Source of the DNA: Tychonema sp. LEGE 07203
GTDB taxonomy: Bacteria > Cyanobacteriota > Cyanobacteriia > Cyanobacteriales > Microcoleaceae
Assembly (NCBI RefSeq): GCF_015207285.1
Contig: NZ_JADEXD010000057.1
Coordinates: 1-34,160 of the forward strand
Length of the DNA stretch: 34,160 nucleotides
Reading direction: 5' to 3'
Under the pieces are notes generated by a model that was given only the letters and a program-made list of their open reading frames with translations, had not been told where the DNA came from and did no database searches. A program made the position numbers and the translations under genes. This document shows positions 1,454 through 22,269 of this stretch, one piece after another; positions within the stretch are counted from its first letter, which is position 1, and each line of letters opens with the position of its first letter.

Positions 1454-3634
1454 ATGAATTCCGATTTTCGCAACCAATCCGAAACACCCCAATTAGAAGA
1501 TGCTGCATCGCTGACTGTCGTTGCAGAAACCTATTACTCCCAAGGCGATTTAACAGCAGCAGTCGCTGCTTGCCGCCAAGCTCTAGAATTGCAACCGGAT
1601 TGGGCGGCGGCTTACGTGACAATGGGCAACGTGCAACAAGCAACCGGGCAAATTGAGGAAGCGATGCGGTTTTATTCCGAGGCGATCGCCCTGAATCCCG
1701 ATTTTGCTGAGGCCTATGCTAATTTGGGGAGTATGCTCTACAAACAAGGGCATTTGGTGGAGGCGATTGTCAACTACCAAAAGGCGATCGAACTCAAACC
1801 AACTTTGGCTGCCGCCTACTGGAATTTGGCAGGGGCGATGAAGCAGCAGGGGCAGTCGGATGCTGCTGCAGCCTACGAGCAAAAAGCTCTCGAACTCAAT
1901 CCCCATCTGGCTCAGGTAGATTTTCACATAAATTTAGGCGATAAACTAGCGCGACAGGGGAAGTTAGATGAGGCTGTAGCTGCATGGCAGCGGGCGATCG
2001 CCTTCAAACCCGATTTACCCGAAGCATACTGTCAAATTGGCATAATTTTGCGCCACCAGGGCAAATTTAAAGATGCCATACCCAACCTGCAAAAAGCCCT
2101 AGAAATTAAGCCAGATTTTATTTCCGCCCACCAACATTTGTGCGGCATCCTCAGAGATACTAGCGATTTAGCAGCCGCGCGGCAAGCCGTGCACGCATAC
2201 AGCCAAATGTGCGCCGAAACCGATCCGATTATGACGGCGATTTACTTCGTCAGCACCTATCAAGTGTCGGGATTGAATCAAATTGCGGGCGATCGATTTT
2301 TAGAACTAGAATCCTACTTGCAGCAAAACTTAGAAACCGCGACTTCCGTAGAAGTTAAATCGCTTTATGCAAACTTGTTATTCAGCACGCCCTATCTGCG
2401 AGATGACTTGGCAGCAAACTCTCAGCTTTACAGATTAATTGCCAAAAAGTACGTTGACAAATGTATCAAACCTAATTTTCCTCAACCTGCAAATTACAGT
2501 TACCAACCAAAAGCCCCAGGTAGCAAGTTAAAAATCGGCTTTTTATCCAATCACTTCAGCCGCCATTCTGTAGGTTGGTGCAGCGCTGACATCATTCGCG
2601 AATTGTCCGGAATCACGCCCAACTTGTATTTATACGCTTCCGAAAGAATTGTTTCTGACGATCGCACTCAGCAATTTGAAAGTTTCGGCAAACTGACTTT
2701 TCCCAAAACTTACCCGAACGGACTTGCCAATTCCGCAGAAATTATCGACCAAATTCAGCAAGACGAATTGGACGTTTTAGTCGATTTAGATTCTCTCAGC
2801 GTACCGATTCACGCAGACATTCTCTACCAAAAACCAGCACCAGTTTGTATTTCTTGGTTGGGATTTGATGCACCTTACATATCCTCGGAAAATTACTTTC
2901 TTACAGACTGGCACTCGCACCCAGAAGGTCGCGAAAAATATTATGACGAACAGCTAATTAGGATGCCGGATTCTTTTGTAGCGGTGTCAGGTTTTCAGAG
3001 GTACGGAGTCGATCCGGTGGCATTGAGAAAGTCGAACCGGATCGGTTTGGATCAGACGGTTTACCTGTGCGTCGCTCCGGGCAGAAAATTTAATCGCGAC
3101 TTAGTAAAAGCACAAGTTGCGATTCTCAAACAAGTGCCGAACAGTGTTTTAATTCACAAAGCTTTGGGCGATGCTGCGGTGTTTGAGGCTGCGTATCATC
3201 AAGCTTGCGAAGCTGAAGGAGTCAGCAAGCACCGAATTAAGTTTTTGCCGAGGTTTGCTACGGAGGAAGAACACAGAATTGTCTATTTGCTGGCCGATGT
3301 TTTGTTGGATTCCTATCCTTATAATGGAGGCACTCACACTTTAGAGGCTTTGTGGTTTAATTTGCCTGTGGTGACTCGTACCGGAGAGCAATTTTTGTCG
3401 AGAATGGGTTATTCGTTTTTGCAGGTTTTGGGGATGGAAACTGGCGCGGCGGGGTCTTGGGCGGAATATGTAGATTTGGGTGTAAAATTGGGTAAAGATG
3501 GTGATTTGAGACAGGCAATTAAAGCGCATTTGATCGAGTCTAAAAACCCCGCTAATTTGTCGCCGCTGTGGAATCCTAAAAAGTTTGCTGATGATATGTA
3601 TGGGGTGTTTGAAAAACTGTGTAAAATAGGATGA
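1454..3634 (+). CDS. TPR-domain O-linked GlcNAc transferase-like protein (SPINDLY/GT41 family)
   Basis: 726 residues from the Met of MNSDFRNQ. The open frame extends upstream to 1325, but that would overlap the divergent gene. Residues about 20-230 hold roughly six TPR units (for example YSEAIALNPDFAEAYANLG and YQKAIELKPTLAAAYWNLA). The region from about 358 to 715 is the GT41 catalytic half: KIGFLSNHFSRHSVGW, CISWLGFDAPYISSENYFL, and a nucleotide-sugar-binding segment NGGTHTLEALWFNLPVVTRT near 625-644. This is the domain order of cyanobacterial SPINDLY-type proteins, which attach sugars to Ser/Thr of target proteins. The substrate cannot be read from the sequence. Neighbours give no pathway hint. 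Confidence 0.88.
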   Translation: MNSDFRNQSETPQLEDAASLTVVAETYYSQGDLTAAVAACRQALELQPDWAAAYVTMGNVQQATGQIEEAMRFYSEAIALNPDFAEAYANLGSMLYKQGHLVEAIVNYQKAIELKPTLAAAYWNLAGAMKQQGQSDAAAAYEQKALELNPHLAQVDFHINLGDKLARQGKLDEAVAAWQRAIAFKPDLPEAYCQIGIILRHQGKFKDAIPNLQKALEIKPDFISAHQHLCGILRDTSDLAAARQAVHAYSQMCAETDPIMTAIYFVSTYQVSGLNQIAGDRFLELESYLQQNLETATSVEVKSLYANLLFSTPYLRDDLAANSQLYRLIAKKYVDKCIKPNFPQPANYSYQPKAPGSKLKIGFLSNHFSRHSVGWCSADIIRELSGITPNLYLYASERIVSDDRTQQFESFGKLTFPKTYPNGLANSAEIIDQIQQDELDVLVDLDSLSVPIHADILYQKPAPVCISWLGFDAPYISSENYFLTDWHSHPEGREKYYDEQLIRMPDSFVAVSGFQRYGVDPVALRKSNRIGLDQTVYLCVAPGRKFNRDLVKAQVAILKQVPNSVLIHKALGDAAVFEAAYHQACEAEGVSKHRIKFLPRFATEEEHRIVYLLADVLLDSYPYNGGTHTLEALWFNLPVVTRTGEQFLSRMGYSFLQVLGMETGAAGSWAEYVDLGVKLGKDGDLRQAIKAHLIESKNPANLSPLWNPKKFADDMYGVFEKLCKIG

Positions 3635-15950: not shown

Positions 15951-16640
15951 TTATCCAAACAACCGCTGCTGTCCGTTTGCCGCATCTTTCCCGGCATAAA
16001 TCTCGCGCGTTCCCTTGGGAATGTAAATCCAGTCGAACTCTTGCAGGCGGTTTGTCAAGTTGGAAATGCTGACTCCCAATTCATCTCTCATTTTGTATAA
16101 ATGCGACCATTTTGTTAAATCGCGTCCCTTTCTTTTATCTTCCAAAACAACTCGGGGCATTAACAAACAGCTTGCAAAATATTGGGCTTGCCATTCGATC
16201 GACGCAATTTTGGTATTCGCGATCGCACCCCGACAAACAAACGGTTCTTCGACATCAGACGCTGTTTTTTCTCGATCGCCCAAATTGAGTTCCAACTGTT
16301 CGACAGTACCGTCTGCTTCGTCTTGATTGACGTGCAGCACCCAGTGGCCGATTTCGTGGGCGATCGTCGATTCGATGAACCCCGGCGGTTTTTCGAGAAT
16401 CAATTCGTTGATTTCGATTAACCGCTGCTGGGGTAAAATCCTGGCGGCGATCGCACCTTCTTCATCCGGCTCAATGCAGTCCCAAACTACGCCCAAATCC
16501 AGAAAATCAGCAACCGTCGTCGCTTCAAAAGGCCATTTCGGAGCAAACTTTTGCGTTTTCTGCATCTGCATTAAAATGTCATTTGCCAAACGCTCGATCG
16601 ATTCTTTGGGATAGAAGCAATACGGTTTAAAAATACTCAC
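15951..16640 (-). CDS. ImmA/IrrE-type metallopeptidase
   Basis: 229 residues. The zinc motif is AHEIGHWVLH, with H95, E96 and H99. The third ligand is likely E149 in IEWQAQYFASCLLMP, the COG2856/DUF955 signature. The C-terminus (LYKMRDELGVSISNLTNRL) resembles the winged-helix-like tail of the family. In Bacillus ICEBs1 ImmA and Deinococcus IrrE, such proteases inactivate a cognate XRE repressor when triggered. Its start is 15 bp after the stop of the XRE gene, so the two are cotranscribed and probably function as a pair. Confidence 0.88.
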   Translation of the reverse strand: MSIFKPYCFYPKESIERLANDILMQMQKTQKFAPKWPFEATTVADFLDLGVVWDCIEPDEEGAIAARILPQQRLIEINELILEKPPGFIESTIAHEIGHWVLHVNQDEADGTVEQLELNLGDREKTASDVEEPFVCRGAIANTKIASIEWQAQYFASCLLMPRVVLEDKRKGRDLTKWSHLYKMRDELGVSISNLTNRLQEFDWIYIPKGTREIYAGKDAANGQQRLFG

Positions 16641-16655
16641 TATCAGGGGCCTCTC

Positions 16656-17003
16656 TTACGCTTCAAAAGATTGTTTGAGCCAATCTGGATTTTCTTGCAT
16701 CCGGCGGAAAAGAGCCTGCATTTCCTTCGGATTCTGCTTCAGCAGCGCTTCGTACTGCTGAGGCAGTCTCCCCGCCAAAAAAATCAATTCCTCTTCGTTA
16801 ATGTCGAGATTCCGCGCCAATGCTCGAATTACTTCCTCTTTTGGCGCGTAATCGGCGCGATCGTTCTCCAACTTCGACAAATAAGTAAAATCCACACTTA
16901 GCATAGCAGCAAGCTCACGTTGTGAGTAAGCCTTATCCTTGCGAGCTTGACGGATCAGTCTTCCAAATGTTTGTTCCACGGTTTTTCGCCTCCTGACAAG
17001 CAT
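16656..17003 (-). CDS. XRE-family HTH transcriptional repressor, partner of the ImmA-type protease
   Basis: 115 residues from MLVRRRKTVEQ. A longer form from 17057 and a GTG start at 16979 (VEQTFGRL) are alternatives. Residues about 13-70 are an XRE helix-turn-helix: LIRQARKDKAYSQRELAAML, then YLSKLENDRADYAPKEEVI. The C-terminal stretch (YEALLKQNPKEMQALFRRMQ) is helical and is the usual region recognised by an ImmA/IrrE partner. First gene of a two-gene unit. It probably represses its own promoter and the divergent operon starting at 17233, where palindromic sites lie. Confidence 0.87.
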   Translation of the reverse strand: MLVRRRKTVEQTFGRLIRQARKDKAYSQRELAAMLSVDFTYLSKLENDRADYAPKEEVIRALARNLDINEEELIFLAGRLPQQYEALLKQNPKEMQALFRRMQENPDWLKQSFEA

Positions 17004-17038
17004 TCTAGCCTGTTTTGATGAAAACTTCAACAAAATAC

Positions 17039-17093
17039 TTGACGGGAAAATCAACATGCGCTACCATGAATTTAGTTGACCCTTTAGTCAACT
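17039..17093 (+). promoter_or_regulatory. Candidate promoter and operator of the divergent cassette
   Basis: TTGACG at 17039-17044 and TACCAT at 17062-17067 are separated by exactly 17 bp, a sigma70-type layout reading right. Just downstream, at 17074-17093, is a perfect inverted repeat AGTTGAC-N6-GTCAACT, where a repressor would overlap the transcription start. It lies within 100 bp of the XRE start codon. Operator identity is inferred. Confidence 0.5.
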
Positions 17094-17142
17094 GTCGTGA
17101 CCGCACTGCTGTGGTTAAAAGTGGAAATCAGCTAAAAAAACA

Positions 17143-17156
17143 CGCTATATATAGCG
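17143..17156. promoter_or_regulatory. 14-bp perfect palindrome CGCTATATATAGCG
   Basis: Perfect inverted repeat in the leader of the 17233 gene, 77 bp before its start codon. It could be a second operator or a small transcript hairpin. No other copy is obvious nearby. Confidence 0.35.
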
Positions 17157-17232
17157 CCGCTAAGTTGAGAGGAGCGATCGCCAGCCGGATCTAAACCCTT
17201 GTACGCAGCAAATAAGGAGGAACAGATAGCAA

Positions 17233-17499
17233 ATGCTGAGAACCTGGACAGACACGCATTACAAGCTTGAAGACGATGACTGGCTATACATCGCCACCCA
17301 CGAAGAACAAAGTTCGGCCTCACTGGTTTGTCCGGGCTACGCGCGGGATGGCGAAGGCTTCAGCATCCACTTCACCCCAGCCCACCTAGAAACCTTAGAG
17401 CATTTGCTCACCGCCCTGCGGATTATTCAAGCTCAACAAGAGGCGATGCTTGAGTACAAATATCCCGAACCAAAAGCTACAACACATCTCATTCGGTAA
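17233..17499 (+). CDS. Unknown 88-residue protein, first gene of the XRE/ImmA-linked cassette
   Basis: Starts MLRTWTDTHYKLEDDDWLYI after a strong AAGGAGG at 17214-17220 (spacer of 12 bases). Not recognised. It looks like a compact soluble alpha/beta protein: an acidic aromatic N-terminal part, then FSIHFTPAHLETLEHLLTAL, which reads as a strand followed by an amphipathic helix, and a basic tail ending in HLIR. No membrane segment and a single cysteine. It is separated from the next gene by 119 bp that consist mostly of two simple repeats. Confidence 0.65.
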   Translation: MLRTWTDTHYKLEDDDWLYIATHEEQSSASLVCPGYARDGEGFSIHFTPAHLETLEHLLTALRIIQAQQEAMLEYKYPEPKATTHLIR

Positions 17500-17506
17500 T
17501 CGGAAG

Positions 17507-17582
17507 GGGAGATGGGGAGATGGGGAGATGGGGAGAATTAGCCAATTACCAATTACCAATTCCCAATTACCAATTCCCAATT
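17507..17582. repeat. Two adjacent simple tandem arrays (GGGGAGAT)n and (CCAATTA/CCAATTC)n
   Basis: About three to four units of GGGGAGAT run to about 17536. They are followed by about six units alternating CCAATTA and CCAATTC. They fill the gap between the first and second genes of the cassette. A similar GAATTGG array occurs at 28128-28156. Confidence 0.8.
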
Positions 17583-17618
17583 GTCTGTAAATCAATAAAG
17601 AACTAAGGAAAAACAACA

Positions 17619-18323
17619 ATGACTACTAAAACACAAGAAAGACCTACATTTTCAGTATTTGGTGCCAAACCGAACAATGCTTTGCTAGTACCAGAAATCC
17701 CGATCGCCGTTCGCAACAACTGCCAAAGCGGCCAGTGGGCGATCGGCGATACCGATTACGGTTCCAAGTGTTCGATCACCATCCTCAAATTTGCCAAATT
17801 TTTCGGTTCCCTCGGTCAAACTTCCCACACACTTTGGGGTCAACTTTGGTTCGTCGCAGAAACAGGCGAACTCCCCCAAGGAGTTGTCATGGTGACATAC
17901 ATCAAAAACCGCAGTTTAAACGATTTTAACCGTTTAGTCGCATCAGTTCAATCACGCGGCGTAGAGCCAGCAACCGGAATATTTGTCCCCGAATTCGTCA
18001 AACATTCCGGTCAAAAACCAGACGATAGCGGAGTAGTAAAACCGATCAATTACTACAGCTTGAAATGGTCGTGGATGGAGCGAAAAGACTGGGCAGTTAT
18101 CGATCAAGCAGCAGCAGTTTTGTCCGATCCGAGCAATCAATCGCGGATGATTGACTTAGAAGGAACCAGGGCTATGATCTGTTTAGATAACCTACCAGCA
18201 GCACAAGTTGCGTCCTTGATGGCCGCTGACGCTGGCGGTGAAAGCGATGCTATTGCTTTGAATTCTAACGGCGGTATGTCGCTACCGTCAGCGGAAGATA
18301 GAGCAACTGCTGACTTGTTCTAA
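17619..18323 (+). CDS. Unknown 234-residue protein of the coiled-coil cassette
   Basis: Starts MTTKTQERPTFSVFGAKPNN; AAGGAAAAAC just upstream can serve as a ribosome site. Not recognised. The body (about 30-180) is rich in aromatic strands: WAIGDTDYGSKCSITILKFA, TLWGQLWFVAETGELPQGVV, then YYSLKWSWMERKDWAVIDQA, suggesting a beta-rich soluble domain. The last 40 residues are low complexity and end in the acidic-hydrophobic tip EDRATADLF. That general pattern (ordered core, flexible tail, acidic hydrophobic tip) resembles single-stranded-DNA-binding proteins, but no OB-fold motif can be asserted. An attenuator-like hairpin follows its stop. Confidence 0.7.
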   Translation: MTTKTQERPTFSVFGAKPNNALLVPEIPIAVRNNCQSGQWAIGDTDYGSKCSITILKFAKFFGSLGQTSHTLWGQLWFVAETGELPQGVVMVTYIKNRSLNDFNRLVASVQSRGVEPATGIFVPEFVKHSGQKPDDSGVVKPINYYSLKWSWMERKDWAVIDQAAAVLSDPSNQSRMIDLEGTRAMICLDNLPAAQVASLMAADAGGESDAIALNSNGGMSLPSAEDRATADLF

Positions 18324-18330
18324 TTTTGTG

Positions 18331-18360
18331 GAAAAGGCGCGATTTAATCGCGCTTTTTCC
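18331..18360 (+). terminator. Rho-independent terminator or attenuator
   Basis: Arms GAAAAGGCGCGATT and AATCGCGCTTTTTC form a stem of about 13 bp with a nearly closed loop, and the second arm ends in a T-run. It lies 8 bp after the stop of the 234-residue protein gene and before the next cassette gene, so it may reduce expression of the downstream genes. Confidence 0.6.
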
Positions 18361-18384
18361 GTAACTGTGACAGCGAAGAGCCAA

Positions 18385-18753
18385 ATGAAAAAAGTCACTA
18401 AAATCAAAACCCAACCAAACCTGCAAGAAAGCCGTTTGAGAGAGAATTTCGAGATGCTCGATCGCATTCGGGATGATACAGTCAACGACATCGAAAGTCT
18501 TACCAAAGACTTCCAGCACATGACTGTAGTTGCCGAATCTATCCGGCGGAATTACCGAGCTTTGCTATCGGAAAATCAACTGCTAAAAAACACGCTTCTA
18601 AGTATAGTTGAGGATTGCGAATGCTGGCAAAGCAATCGGTGCGATCGCTGTCAAAAAATACTCAAATCTCTAGACAACAATAATCCCGACTGTCCGCCGA
18701 ATGCAGCCAAAGAATACCGAGCTATTCTCAGCCAACTGCGGAACTTAGGATAA
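18385..18753 (+). CDS. Small Cys-knuckle protein of unknown function
   Basis: 122 residues from MKKVTKIKTQ, preceded by GAAGAG. The open frame begins at 18328 but that would start inside the terminator hairpin. Residues about 15-75 form a long helix with coiled-coil character (ENFEMLDRIRDDTVNDIESL, then NYRALLSENQLLKNTLLSI). Next comes a cysteine cluster CEC-x5-CDRC (C78, C80, C86, C89) that could bind zinc, and a further Cys at 103. No known family is recognised. It lies 57 bp before the first coiled-coil gene, in the same direction. Confidence 0.6.
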   Translation: MKKVTKIKTQPNLQESRLRENFEMLDRIRDDTVNDIESLTKDFQHMTVVAESIRRNYRALLSENQLLKNTLLSIVEDCECWQSNRCDRCQKILKSLDNNNPDCPPNAAKEYRAILSQLRNLG

Positions 18754-18810
18754 CTCAAAACCTCTCACAAACCAACCCTGCAAAAGTTTTAATCAGGAGC
18801 AACAAACCTT

Positions 18811-19788
18811 ATGACACTAGCAACAGCCAAAGATAGCAAAACCAAGATTTTGCAAAGTTTTCACCAAATTTTAGCAGACAAAAAAAAGATTGAATCGAAA
18901 GTCGAAACTAAGGAACAGTCAGCGGAAAAAGCCAAAAGCAAACAACTCCTAGAAGTTGCTTCTACCTACACAATTGATAGCATTGTTAAAGGCTTGGCAG
19001 ACTTGCAATTAGATTTCGGTAGCATCACCAGCGGACTTTCGGAAAAACTGAAGGCGGAATCTGCGAAATTAGATGAATTAAAACGGGCGATCGAAATTGA
19101 AGCCGAACAATTGCAAGAGTTGCAGCAAGTTAGAGTTGTAGCAGACGCTCTCCACATTTTAACTCAAGAACACCGGGAAAAACTGACGCTCCTCGAACAA
19201 AACGCCGCCAACCAGCGCGAAGTATTGGAAAAAGATACAACCCAAAAGCGCAAGATTTGGGAAAAAGAACAGCAAGAATTTGATGCAGCTTTTCAAGAAC
19301 AAACTGCACTCACAACAAAAGGGCGCCAGCAGGAAACAGCCGATTATCAATACGAATTGCAGCGCGATCGCAAAATTGAAACCGACGAATACGAAGAAAC
19401 GAAGCGCAAACTAGAACGGCAATTGGAAGAATCTACCCGCGAAAAAGACAAAAACTGGGCGGAAAGAGAAAAAGCCCTCAGCGACAATCAAGCGGAGTTT
19501 GAAGAGAATCAAAGGAAGGCCGCTGGATTTGAAGAAGAACTCAAACAGGCTTATGTGAAAGCCAAAGAAGAAGCTATTCAAGAAGTTTCCCGCGAAGCTA
19601 AAGTCAAGGCAGATTTAGCGGACAAGGAATGGGAAGCAAGCAAGCAGGGATATGAGTTGAAAGTGCAATCTTTACAGCAGACTATTGCGCGGCAAACTGA
19701 ACAAATCGCTGAGATTTCCGCGCAACTGCAAGCTACGATGAAGCAAGCGCAAGATTTGGCAATGAAAGCTTTTGCGAGCAAAGCTTAA
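18811..19788 (+). CDS. Coiled-coil protein, paralog 1
   Basis: 325 residues preceded by AGGAG at about 18795. Almost entirely charged heptad sequence after residue 70: LSEKLKAESAKLDELKRAIE, YQYELQRDRKIETDEYEETK, WAEREKALSDNQAEFEEN. It ends with a conserved tail motif KVKADLADKEWEASKQGYEL through KQAQDLAMKAFASKA. No ATPase or membrane motif. It aligns along its length with the protein at 19903-20982, so the two are paralogs from tandem duplication. Proteins of this type may self-assemble into filaments or act as structural scaffolds; that is inference from composition only. Confidence 0.75.
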   Translation: MTLATAKDSKTKILQSFHQILADKKKIESKVETKEQSAEKAKSKQLLEVASTYTIDSIVKGLADLQLDFGSITSGLSEKLKAESAKLDELKRAIEIEAEQLQELQQVRVVADALHILTQEHREKLTLLEQNAANQREVLEKDTTQKRKIWEKEQQEFDAAFQEQTALTTKGRQQETADYQYELQRDRKIETDEYEETKRKLERQLEESTREKDKNWAEREKALSDNQAEFEENQRKAAGFEEELKQAYVKAKEEAIQEVSREAKVKADLADKEWEASKQGYELKVQSLQQTIARQTEQIAEISAQLQATMKQAQDLAMKAFASKA

Positions 19789-19795
19789 AGATTAC

Positions 19796-19850
19796 TCGGC
19801 GGTTGAAACCGCAACTACACAAACGAAGTCCGCGCAACGCGAGACTAAGA
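19796..19850. repeat. GGCGGTTGAAACCGC-type dispersed repeat
   Basis: CTCGGCGGTTGAAACCGC, a short spacer with ACACAAACGAAGTCCGCG, then GCGAGACTAAGA. Nearly the same order and sequence as 22778-22832, and its left half also matches 10957. It sits between the two coiled-coil paralogs. Confidence 0.8.
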
Positions 19851-19902
19851 ATTAGAATTGAAACCAGACCAAATTTGCCCAACTATTAAGAGATGGAAAG
19901 CT

Positions 19903-20982
19903 ATGAACAAAAAAGTTAGCGACAAAAGCACCAAGGCTCAAATCTTAGAAGCGTACAAGGAAGCCGCGCAAGAAAAAGCTGCATTAGAATTGCAAATCAA
20001 ACAGCTAAATGCTTCCCCAAAGCAAGCAGCAGTTCCTGAAAAACTTATTGTGGAGGCACAAAAATCAATGGTTTCAACTCAAACTCAACAAAAAATGCAG
20101 TCCACAATCGACAATCTGATTTTGCTGCAATTTGGCTTTGGTGGCGCTGTCAGCGAGTTGTCTGAGAAGTTAACTTCCGAAGCTACTAAATTGGAAGAAT
20201 TGCGGCGCGTTGTGGGGGAGGAAGTTCAACAACTGCAAGAGTTGCACGGTTTAGAAGATGTTGCGGAAGATACGCTGGATAATTTAATTCAGCAGTACGA
20301 AGAAAGTGCGAAAACTTTTACTGACGAACTCAGCGAACGGCGCGAAACTGTTGAACAGGAGTTGTTGGAACTGCGGCTGGCTTGGGAAAAAGAGCAGGAA
20401 TTGCAAAAGTTGGCAGTGAAAGAACGCAATGATAATCAGCAAAAAGCTCGCAGCCGGGATGAGGAGTTGTATGATTACGATCTGAATCTTCAGCGAAATC
20501 TGGATATCGAAGAATACGAACAGCGCCAGCAAAGGCTTTATCAAGAAATTGAAGAGTTTCGCCAGGAACAGGAGAAACAGTGGGCGGAACGGGAAAAATC
20601 TATTTCGGAACGGGAAAGTTTGTCTGCGGATGTTAAGGCTAAGGTGGAAGCTTTTCCGAAGGAATTGGAAGCTAATATCAAGAATGGGAAGGATACTGGT
20701 CGCAATATTGGCAATTATCAAGCTAAGGTTAAGGCGGATTTGTTGGCTAAAGATATTGAAGGACAAAAGCAAAATTATGAGCTGCAAATTCAAGGGATGT
20801 TGCAGACTATTCAAAATCAAGATGCGCGGCTTGCTAGTTTGTCACAGCAACTTGATTCTGCTTTGAAACAGGTTCAAGATTTGGCGGTGAAGGCGATTGA
20901 GGGTTCGTCGAATTTGAGTTCTTTCCAAGCTGTGAGGGAAATTGCGATCGAACAAGCTAAGACTCAGCAGAAAAATAAGTAG
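19903..20982 (+). CDS. Coiled-coil protein, paralog 2
   Basis: 359 residues from MNKKVSDKSTKAQILEAYKE, after GGAAAG. A further 45 bases upstream are open, but this start has the better ribosome site. Strongly charged coiled coil throughout. Shared blocks with paralog 1 include LSEKLTSEATKLEELRRVVG (LSEKLKAESAKLDELKRAIE in the other), the QLQEL segment, QWAEREKSISERE, and the tail KVKADL, KQNYELQIQ, QTIQNQD, KQVQDLAVKA. Beyond the shared tail it has an extra 25 residues. Last gene of the cassette. It is followed by the palindromic repeat at 21017, which may end the transcript. Confidence 0.75.
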   Translation: MNKKVSDKSTKAQILEAYKEAAQEKAALELQIKQLNASPKQAAVPEKLIVEAQKSMVSTQTQQKMQSTIDNLILLQFGFGGAVSELSEKLTSEATKLEELRRVVGEEVQQLQELHGLEDVAEDTLDNLIQQYEESAKTFTDELSERRETVEQELLELRLAWEKEQELQKLAVKERNDNQQKARSRDEELYDYDLNLQRNLDIEEYEQRQQRLYQEIEEFRQEQEKQWAEREKSISERESLSADVKAKVEAFPKELEANIKNGKDTGRNIGNYQAKVKADLLAKDIEGQKQNYELQIQGMLQTIQNQDARLASLSQQLDSALKQVQDLAVKAIEGSSNLSSFQAVREIAIEQAKTQQKNK

Positions 20983-21127: not shown

Positions 21128-21850
21128 ATGGCTGATAGTAACAACTTGGAACTGCGGGATATTCCGATATATTCTATCCCTCAAGCAGCACAATATCTCA
21201 GGCTGCGGAGAGATATGTTGCGACATTGGGTTGTTGGCTGGTACTCGCAAACAAAAACGGACAAGCACTTCTTTGAGCCGTTGATTGAGTTACCTCAACA
21301 CAATAATCTTGAACTGCTGCCCCAGTCCAAAACTACACTACTTTCTTTCACAAATTTGGTAGAGGCTCATGTCTTGATGGCTATTGTTAAGGCTACAGGC
21401 TTCTCCCGCAAGCAACTTAGCACCACTCTCAAATGTGTCAACCGTAATTTTTCTACTCCTCACTTATACGCTCGAATTGAGTTTCAAGTCGAGGGAATTG
21501 CTATTTTGTTTGAGAGATGCGGACAGAAGCTTGCAGCATCCGGCAGGGAACAGGAAGCAAGGCAGATTCTAGACATTTATTTCGATCGCATTGTACGAGA
21601 TGAAGCTGGATTACCTATCAAACTCTTCCCTTTCACGAAGCTACCAGGTTCCGACGAACCTAAAACAGTGATGATTGACCCCACAATCTCCTTTGGTCGC
21701 CCAGTTTTGGCTGGAACTGGCATTCCCACAGCTATGCTGGCAGAACGTTACAAAGCGGGTGATTCCATCGATGAACTTGCTGAGGACTATAATTGCGATC
21801 GGCTCCAAATAGAGGAAGGTATTCGCTGCGAACTTCCGCTAGTAGCATGA
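21128..21850 (+). CDS. DUF433-domain antitoxin with N-terminal MerR-like HTH
   Basis: 240 residues, preceded by GGAGG at about 21115. The N-terminal part (IYSIPQAAQYLRLRRDMLRH) is a winged-helix/MerR-like DNA-binding region. A middle region (LVEAHVLMAIVKATGFSRKQ) is typical of the longer DUF433 antitoxins. The C-terminal DUF433 domain is clear: MIDPTISFGRPVLAGTGIPT and DSIDELAEDYNCDRLQIEEG. Its TGA overlaps the start of the toxin gene (ATGA). DUF433 proteins accompany PIN-like DUF5615 toxins, and the pair would act as an autoregulated type II toxin-antitoxin module. Confidence 0.85.
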   Translation: MADSNNLELRDIPIYSIPQAAQYLRLRRDMLRHWVVGWYSQTKTDKHFFEPLIELPQHNNLELLPQSKTTLLSFTNLVEAHVLMAIVKATGFSRKQLSTTLKCVNRNFSTPHLYARIEFQVEGIAILFERCGQKLAASGREQEARQILDIYFDRIVRDEAGLPIKLFPFTKLPGSDEPKTVMIDPTISFGRPVLAGTGIPTAMLAERYKAGDSIDELAEDYNCDRLQIEEGIRCELPLVA

Positions 21851-22269
21851 ATGAGATATTTTTCATCGATCGATGTTTAGGAACAAAACTGGCAGATTCG
21901 TTACGAAATGCGGGGGCGACAGTAGAAATTCATGACGATCGTTTTAAGCAAGATGTCAAGGATGAGGATTGGCTGAGGATAGTTGGAGAAAGCAATTGGG
22001 TTGTACTTACAAAGGACAACCCAATTGCTAGCCGTCCTTTGGAGTTATTGGCTGTGGCTCAAGGTAATGTACGGCTGTTTGCATTTGTGGGTGGCGATGT
22101 TTCTGGAGTTGTAGTGGCACAAGCTTTTGTAAATGCCTTAGAAAATATGCAACGATTTATTCGGGGGAATCAAGCACCTTTTATTGCTAAGGTGTACCAG
22201 TCGGGTTTGGTAAAGCCCTGCAAAAACCAAAAGGAACTTTTGAGGATTCTCCCTAAAACCAGTGAGTAA
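21847..22269 (+). CDS. PIN-like (DUF5615/Mut7-C-type) toxin, partner of the DUF433 antitoxin
   Basis: 140 residues, starting at the ATG that overlaps the upstream stop codon by four bases. The N-terminus MNEIFFIDRCLGTKLADSLR has the acidic residue of the PIN-like fold at D8. A second acidic cluster is DVKDEDWLRIVGESNWVVLT, followed by the T-K-D-N motif at about residues 57-60, where the catalytic Asp of this family is expected. Likely a ribonuclease toxin. The coupled translation and the DUF433 neighbour make this reading firm, although the exact DUF number is from memory. Confidence 0.82.
   Translation: MNEIFFIDRCLGTKLADSLRNAGATVEIHDDRFKQDVKDEDWLRIVGESNWVVLTKDNPIASRPLELLAVAQGNVRLFAFVGGDVSGVVVAQAFVNALENMQRFIRGNQAPFIAKVYQSGLVKPCKNQKELLRILPKTSE

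Follow-up and report, generated by a model that had tools for sequence, protein, structure and literature searches.

Which output does the XRE/ImmA switch of a Tychonema chromosome control? The switch and five divergently oriented genes, together called the cassette, lie in a 34,160-nucleotide stretch (the window; positions 1 to 34,160 of contig NZ_JADEXD010000057.1 of Tychonema sp. LEGE 07203, here contig C325 of the 6.6 Mb genome G000). The nearest named relatives of this genome are Microcoleus, Tychonema and one Lyngbya strain. A sequence-only reading of this DNA had proposed a chromosomal stress-inducible module using the switch for a new output. The module is real, conserved and chromosomal, and it is probably stress-inducible; its output is apparently not new, being the already reported gamma-induced arh operon of Limnospira. 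The preferred interpretation, with a probability of roughly 0.7, is that the cassette corresponds in Microcoleus to arh and is an operon inducible by DNA damage, with a repressor that ImmA probably removes in response to single-stranded DNA (ssDNA). The features concerned are as follows.

15951..16640, minus strand: ImmA/IrrE-type M78 metalloprotease, 229 aa (Pfam Peptidase_M78, E 2.5e-9; PADLOC capP, 6.7e-16; HEIGH motif)
16656..16979 (or 17003), minus strand: XRE repressor (HTH_3, E 8e-12; PADLOC HTH_VI, 1e-11, and capH, 3e-9)
17002..17030, minus strand: putative XRE promoter, -35 TTGAAG (17030-17025) inside operator 1, -10 TAGAAT (17007-17002)
17015..17030, unstranded: candidate operator 1, TTGATGAAAACTTCAA, conserved TTGA-N8-TCAA dyad
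17039..17054, unstranded: candidate operator 2, TTGACGGGAAAATCAA, conserved TTGA-N8-TCAA dyad
17039..17067, plus strand: putative five-gene operon promoter, -35 TTGACG within operator 2, spacer of 17 bp, -10 TACCAT
17076..17091, unstranded: candidate operator 3, TTGACCCTTTAGTCAA, conserved TTGA-N8-TCAA dyad
17233..17499, plus strand: p88, proposed ArhA, predicted PC4/Pur-alpha-like ssDNA-binding fold
17619..18323, plus strand: p234, proposed ArhB, predicted OB-like and SSB-type, with further copies on phage-like contigs and plasmids
18385..18753, plus strand: p141, proposed ArhC, a short protein with a Cys knuckle (CxCx5CxxC), likely 122 aa
18811..19788, plus strand: CC1, proposed ArhD (older name ArhC), coiled coil (PHROG_29668, E 5.8e-14)
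19903..20982, plus strand: CC2, proposed ArhE (older name ArhB), coiled-coil paralog of CC1 (PHROG_29668, E 3.5e-24)

The open reading frames (ORFs) of the window place XRE and ImmA leftward and p88-p234-p141-CC1-CC2 rightward. This divergent layout was described correctly from the letters alone, and the Pfam matches and the HEIGH motif confirm the identities of XRE and ImmA. The ORFs named there exist as well, with three starts probably to be moved. XRE more probably begins at GTG 16979 than at ATG 17003, because AGGAGG lies at 16994-16989 and the -10 element at 17007-17002; p141 and CC2 probably start at ATG 18385 and ATG 19903, since loci L147 and L148 show these lengths (122 and 359 aa). 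All seven genes are under purifying selection, with median dN/dS values (13 comparisons each) of 0.09 for p88 and p234, 0.31 for p141, 0.12 for CC1, 0.17 for CC2, 0.10 for ImmA and 0.04 for XRE. None of the five rightward proteins reaches a curated cut-off in Pfam and NCBIfam scans (E up to 1). Scans of Pfam, PHROG, PADLOC and NCBIfam found no nuclease or toxin domain in these five, and no CD-NTase or recognised immune effector among the cassette proteins. PHROG_29668, which matches both coiled-coil proteins, had no match in 14 control genomes, and an Rfam scan of the window gave none. Integrase, phage structural and conjugation genes were not recognised among the scanned cassette and flanking proteins. 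The earlier statement that no integrase or phage structural gene is visible therefore stands, many but not all Microcoleus loci share their flanking genes, and a prophage or integrative and conjugative element (ICE) remnant was rejected for want of such genes.

Regulation by XRE through TTGA-N8-TCAA operators is strongly supported by the sequence comparisons. Three dyads are found in the window and in all 18 readable relatives (the nineteenth, L035, is masked there). In 39 of 40 upstream regions of this XRE type (L036 dropped out), the dyad occurs 63 times at N8 (23 loci) and 22 times at N9 (13 loci), and every other spacer from 2 to 15 occurs 0-2 times; the loci are related by descent, so these motif counts, like the linkage counts below, are not independent. 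Shuffled controls gave a mean of 0.66 and a maximum of 3 for N8 and N9 together, and windows placed at random in these loci, without excluding the operators, gave 0.11 dyads per window. The L153 dyad is an N9 form within an A-rich run. No dyad was present in four of the 39 regions (L118, L127, L151, L164). The 17-bp-spaced promoter noted earlier, TTGACG-17-TACCAT, was confirmed, and its position is conserved in the alignment of relatives. The perfect palindrome noted with it, CGCTATATATAGCG (17143-17156), is likewise present; it is probably not the operator, because conservation is lacking among the aligned relatives, where it is perfect in one of 19 besides the window.

Two wider searches were set aside. 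As a genome-wide motif, AGTTGAC-N6-GTCAACT matched exactly in the window only, among the matches listed; with three mismatches it gave 368 matches versus 485 for a control pattern. Operator doublets matched in at least 43 of 59 genomes, near background (control, 0-11 per genome); the window's own genome held at least nine versus three for the control. Doublets resembling the operator, for example TTGATTTTTAATTCAA-N15-TTGACTATTAAATCAA, are found repeatedly on contigs of G000, G012 and G027 (L167 5061-8651, L168 5063-5109, L169 2571-6149, L171 2406-4667). These may represent repeats of plasmids or decoys for XRE; the contigs of L167 and L171 also carry relaxase-like genes, judged by eye. In two genera, a TnpB gene (L118 7904-9094) or a TnpB-like gene, again judged by eye (L176 10477-11609), lies between XRE and the operators.

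The linkage between switch and output is close among relatives. CC1 is found in 45 and ImmA in 44 of the 59 relatives, both in 39. Within these 39 genomes the two genes lie no more than 10 kb apart in 31, on different contigs in five where the gene run is broken at contig ends (G001, G005, G016, G026, G028), and at separate loci in three (G038, G054, G055). The expected co-occurrence of the XRE/ImmA pair with the five genes thus holds among relatives and is looser at class level, where 16 of 28 coiled-coil loci have no adjacent XRE or M78 gene. Gene order is constant wherever the contig extends far enough. The argS/ATP-grasp and p93/fdx flanks are common to many, not all, Microcoleus/Tychonema loci, and in some (for example L028 and L030-L032) the flanks are not visible within the available stretch. 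Of the 59 relatives, 34 have p234; the figures are 26 of 29 genomes within the genus, 49 of 61 within the family and 11 of 291 within the class. In the same class set ImmA occurs in 18, CC2 in 33 and p88 in six, two of these at E ~3e-4. Three genomes (G010, G023, G027; L147-L149) keep p88 and p141 and lack p234, and five genomes of five other families carry a minimal form, XRE/ImmA divergent from CC1-CC2 alone (L150-L154; L154 is degraded). The conserved core of the output is the coiled-coil pair.

The output was matched to arh by published description and by a length fingerprint; the papers cited here and below were available in part, and statements about them apply to those parts. In PMC8400943 the arh genes number five, are probably transcribed together, point away from the XRE gene arhR and are induced 8-30-fold by gamma irradiation. 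According to PMC4550399, arh is the top gamma-induced set, with a lasting and dose-dependent response; recA shows no induction, a LexA gene is lacking, and two of the five arh genes are SMC-like. PMC4398503 reports a seven-gene cluster from ARTHROv5_10466 (XRE) to 10472 (PstS-like), in which the XRE gene is itself gamma-induced 2.55- and 2.78-fold, as autorepression would give. In Limnospira (Arthrospira) indica PCC 8005 as in the window, five genes run in one direction away from an XRE gene, and the fourth and fifth of them, in the places of CC1 and CC2, are SMC-like or coiled-coil genes. Of the protein lengths from 60 to 700 residues, only 328 and 656 are compatible with the identities 95.12, 94.82 and 94.21 published in PMC4398503. 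In two same-family genomes (L175, L176), presumably Limnospira, the block is colinear, ImmA stands beside XRE, and CC1 has 328 aa. The cassette is apparently the Microcoleus counterpart of the arh operon of spirulina (Limnospira), and its output is probably damage-inducible because of this likely orthology. A difference from the published accounts of arh is the ImmA gene beside XRE: neither ImmA nor a metallopeptidase nor Argonaute is named in the available parts of PMC8400943, PMC4550399 and PMC4398503. IrrE/DdrO appears in PMC4550399 as the mechanism of Deinococcus and is not applied there to arh; PMC4398503 claims a homology with Deinococcus.

Predicted folds suggest what the first two genes may do. 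The AlphaFold2 model of p88 has four strands and a long helix (bbbb-alpha), with a predicted local distance difference test (pLDDT) score of 69 and a predicted template modelling (pTM) score of 0.45. In a Foldseek search of the Protein Data Bank (PDB), 14 of its top 16 matches are Pur-alpha or PC4-type (MoSub1, human PC4, T5 PC4 homologue), none significant (E 0.26-0.65, probability 0.69-0.93). For p234 the model is bbb-alpha-bb (pLDDT 56, pTM 0.51). Its PDB structure list is headed by RNA-editing complex chains and includes many single-stranded DNA-binding proteins (SSBs) at E >=0.08; four viral matches, none named, fall at E <0.001, and a PDB profile search gave no match. Both p88 (PC4-like) and p234 (oligonucleotide/oligosaccharide-binding, OB-like) are predicted ssDNA binders. 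p234 copies also occur on IMG/VR contigs (63-82% identity) and cyanobacterial plasmids (26-34%), and these mobile-element copies interleave with cassette copies in the tree. Insertions of ~2.4 kb split p234 around codon 41 in several relatives, with an additional site near codon 133 in G004. By match positions the gene is interrupted in G004, G005, G007, G009, G032 and G354, and also at L038 216-2644 and L041 5573-8001, where the insertions are group II introns (Rfam RF00029) with a reverse-transcriptase-like ORF. In G026, where p234 breaks at codon 133, the two parts are on different contigs. Eight places in G058 resemble p234, and six of these share ~32% identity with the window copy.

The proposed mechanism has four steps. 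(i) XRE would bind the three operators, which overlap both divergent promoters, and so repress its own gene and p88-p234-p141-CC1-CC2. (ii) When ssDNA accumulates, ImmA would cleave XRE, as family resemblance to CapP-CapH and IrrE-DdrO suggests. (iii) The derepressed operon would supply the two predicted ssDNA-binding proteins and the coiled-coil pair. (iv) CC1 and CC2 would probably bundle or hold DNA that is damaged or single-stranded while it is repaired, a role proposed because of their partners. That the operon serves repair is a hypothesis, with defence as its main rival.

Related switches give this scheme its outline. In ICEBs1, ImmR and ImmA follow the same XRE and ImmA logic; the cassette differs from this element in that no conjugation or integrase gene was recognised. 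CapH/CapP controls CBASS (cyclic oligonucleotide-based anti-phage signalling system) and other immune operons, and likewise sets an XRE gene and an M78 protease gene side by side, divergent from an operon. The cassette pair matches it in PADLOC, but only at E 3e-9 (capH) and 6.7e-16 (capP), and the cassette lacks a CD-NTase or known immune effector. Deinococcus IrrE (PprI) is an ssDNA-activated protease (PMC10904395), and triggering of the cassette ImmA by ssDNA is proposed by analogy with it and with CapH/CapP. The DdrO/IrrE pair also joins repressor and M78 protease and serves DNA damage; its output genes are different, and the cassette switch apparently governs mostly one operon per genome. 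Anything like its multi-gene regulon, in the form of shared-operator trans sites, was seen in G054 and G038 only.

These two genomes provide a separate view of the circuit. In G054 the switch and p88-p234-p141, with three dyads, lie at C13:314 kb (L091) and the coiled-coil pair at C13:42 kb (L155); in G038 the pair (L113) is on a different contig from the switch and a p88-like gene. Two dyads precede CC1 in each unlinked pair, and apparently are trans sites of the cassette-type switch. Dyads precede CC1 at none of 18 other coiled-coil loci without adjacent XRE and at none of nine beside another switch (eight sound, since the CC1 of L116 is a fragment and its upstream stretch is unsound for this and the second-operator count), and they are present in six of seven loci where a window-type XRE directly adjoins the pair.

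That other switch consists of a different XRE and an M78/capP-like protein divergent from CC1. It occupies eight of 28 class-level coiled-coil loci outside the genus; the rest comprise one second-type XRE at a contig end, two window-type XREs without ImmA, 16 loci with neither switch and one without a coiled-coil match. The 28 loci come from 33 positive genomes, three of the same genus and the weak matches G165 and G184 being left out. L162 is a further case. Two of these M78 proteins, those tested, match PADLOC capP at 2.7e-23 and 1.5e-22, and HELME replaces HEXXH in all six capP-like proteins examined beside the pair (L107, L108, L111, L115-L117). The operator of the second switch looks different from TTGA-N8-TCAA: a candidate, GCAAAC-N4-GTTTGC, is exact in four of nine loci.

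The closest switch relatives found adjoin Argonaute loci. A Cas4-like nuclease and a long Argonaute are divergent from XRE at 11 of 15 class ImmA loci away from the cassette, the others being L118, L123, L124 (contig end) and L127. The 15 loci cover 16 of 21 places; three cassette copies, a second G198 copy and a G108 fragment were left out. Among relatives the same arrangement is found at four of seven further non-cassette ImmA loci (L156, L159-L161; not L157, L158, L164), with G025:C96, G035 and G055 left out; several of these genomes also carry the cassette. Argonaute and Cas4-like identities rest on PADLOC for L120 and L128 and on clustering or hidden Markov models for the others; the L131 Argonaute is a fragment, and L119 is from a Microcoleus genome. 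In the ImmA tree, with midpoint root and weak deep forks, the ten copies from cassettes group with L118 (support 98/92), and this set has L120, L122 and L123 as its neighbours (91/85); L120 and L122 are Argonaute-linked with an N8 operator. The Argonaute-linked pairs share the switch family (ImmA 39-61% identical) and the operator half-sites; their output differs, and many have spacer N9 instead of N8. At two Microcoleus Argonaute loci (L119 7994-9889, L159 7207-9027) a long XRE-ImmA-like protein, tested by Pfam in L119, is followed by a second ImmA.

A literature search found no report linking Argonaute with an ImmA/XRE or metalloprotease (M78)-repressor switch. SeAgo and a Cas4-like nuclease limit plasmids (PMC10653904, in whose available part the terms protease, peptidase, XRE and ImmA do not occur). 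DNA-binding proteins of the lambda-repressor-like kind have been reported from pAgo operons (PMC6299218), which makes the XRE half of the link partly known; the available text of that paper mentions no protease, peptidase or ImmA. Cas4-related nucleases beside pAgo, Microcystis included, are described in PMC2743648, with no XRE, HTH or protease in the part available. PMC3702460 was rejected as a prior report of PIWI with metalloprotease, as the rare zincin fusions it treats belong to a different PIWI family.

How do the rival explanations fare? One is an anti-phage or anti-plasmid defence operon, in which the switch would sense ssDNA of an invader, whose DNA would then be the target of the coiled coils and the OB/PC4 proteins. 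The switch relatives flanking Cas4-like nuclease and Argonaute, the proximity of cassette and Argonaute-linked ImmA in the tree, the immune operons under CapH/CapP and the plasmid limitation by SeAgo all favour it. Against this, defence systems are patchy, whereas p234 and the block are near-universal in genus and family and under purifying selection; the five genes have no nuclease or toxin domain recognised in the library scans, and the likely orthologous arh operon responds to gamma rays. Defence seems unlikely as the function of this output. A capture of p88-p234-p141 as replication or recombination genes from a mobile genetic element (MGE), beside a host switch and coiled-coil pair, would make the cassette a partly domesticated phage or plasmid remnant. 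In its favour are the interleaved p234 copies on IMG/VR contigs and plasmids and the resemblance of CC2 to Bacillus phage G gp268 (27.7%). CC1, however, had no confirmed close relative in an IMG/VR search, no integrase, structural or replication gene was recognised in the cassette, and the coiled-coil pair, XRE and ImmA occur without p234; such an origin, which we consider quite improbable, accounts at most for where p234 came from. That XRE/ImmA is an unrelated neighbour, the block being constitutive or otherwise controlled, would suit the 16 of 28 class loci without adjacent XRE. It is made very unlikely by operators that overlap the operon promoter and also precede two unlinked pairs, and by a coupling seen repeatedly, in several families and with two kinds of switch.

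Several observations weigh against the damage-inducible operon itself. L151 has the switch without an exact operator, and the 16 switch-free class loci belong here too. G055, G096, G314 and G271 carry a window-type ImmA elsewhere and a coiled-coil pair without dyads, although in the first three this pair adjoins the other switch. In G034 the 700 bp upstream of a CC2-like gene located elsewhere in the genome (L174) contain no dyad. p234 is dispensable, missing in three of 29 same-genus genomes, and the p88 and p234 models are modest, no PDB match reaching E 0.001. As to arh, the available part of PMC4398503 gives no significant response of gene _10471 at 3200 Gy, the lower of the doses, the gene after CC2 in L175/L176 is unlike the reported PstS-like gene, and L176 has only a short ORF of 78 aa for p141.

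A broader proposal, which we advance tentatively and at slightly less than even odds, is a LexA-independent cyanobacterial DNA-damage alarm. One ssDNA-tripped XRE/ImmA family (TTGA-N8/9-TCAA) would serve two outputs, Argonaute plus Cas4-like defence and arh genome protection, and the coiled-coil pair would have been captured independently by a second, unrelated XRE/CapP-like switch (GCAAAC-N4-GTTTGC). The proposed damage-inducible operon gives a testable regulator and mechanism to arh, by published account the most strongly gamma-induced function-unassigned genes in a strain reported without LexA and without recA induction. It also suggests that the same protease-repressor alarm arms an Argonaute defence, and cyanobacterial DNA-damage sensing and Argonaute switch-on would become testable questions.

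Directly downstream of the cassette, at 21128-22269 of the window, a DUF433/HTH-like gene overlaps a PIN_10 gene. The two are likely a toxin-antitoxin pair, and the same pair adjoins the cassette in some relatives too.

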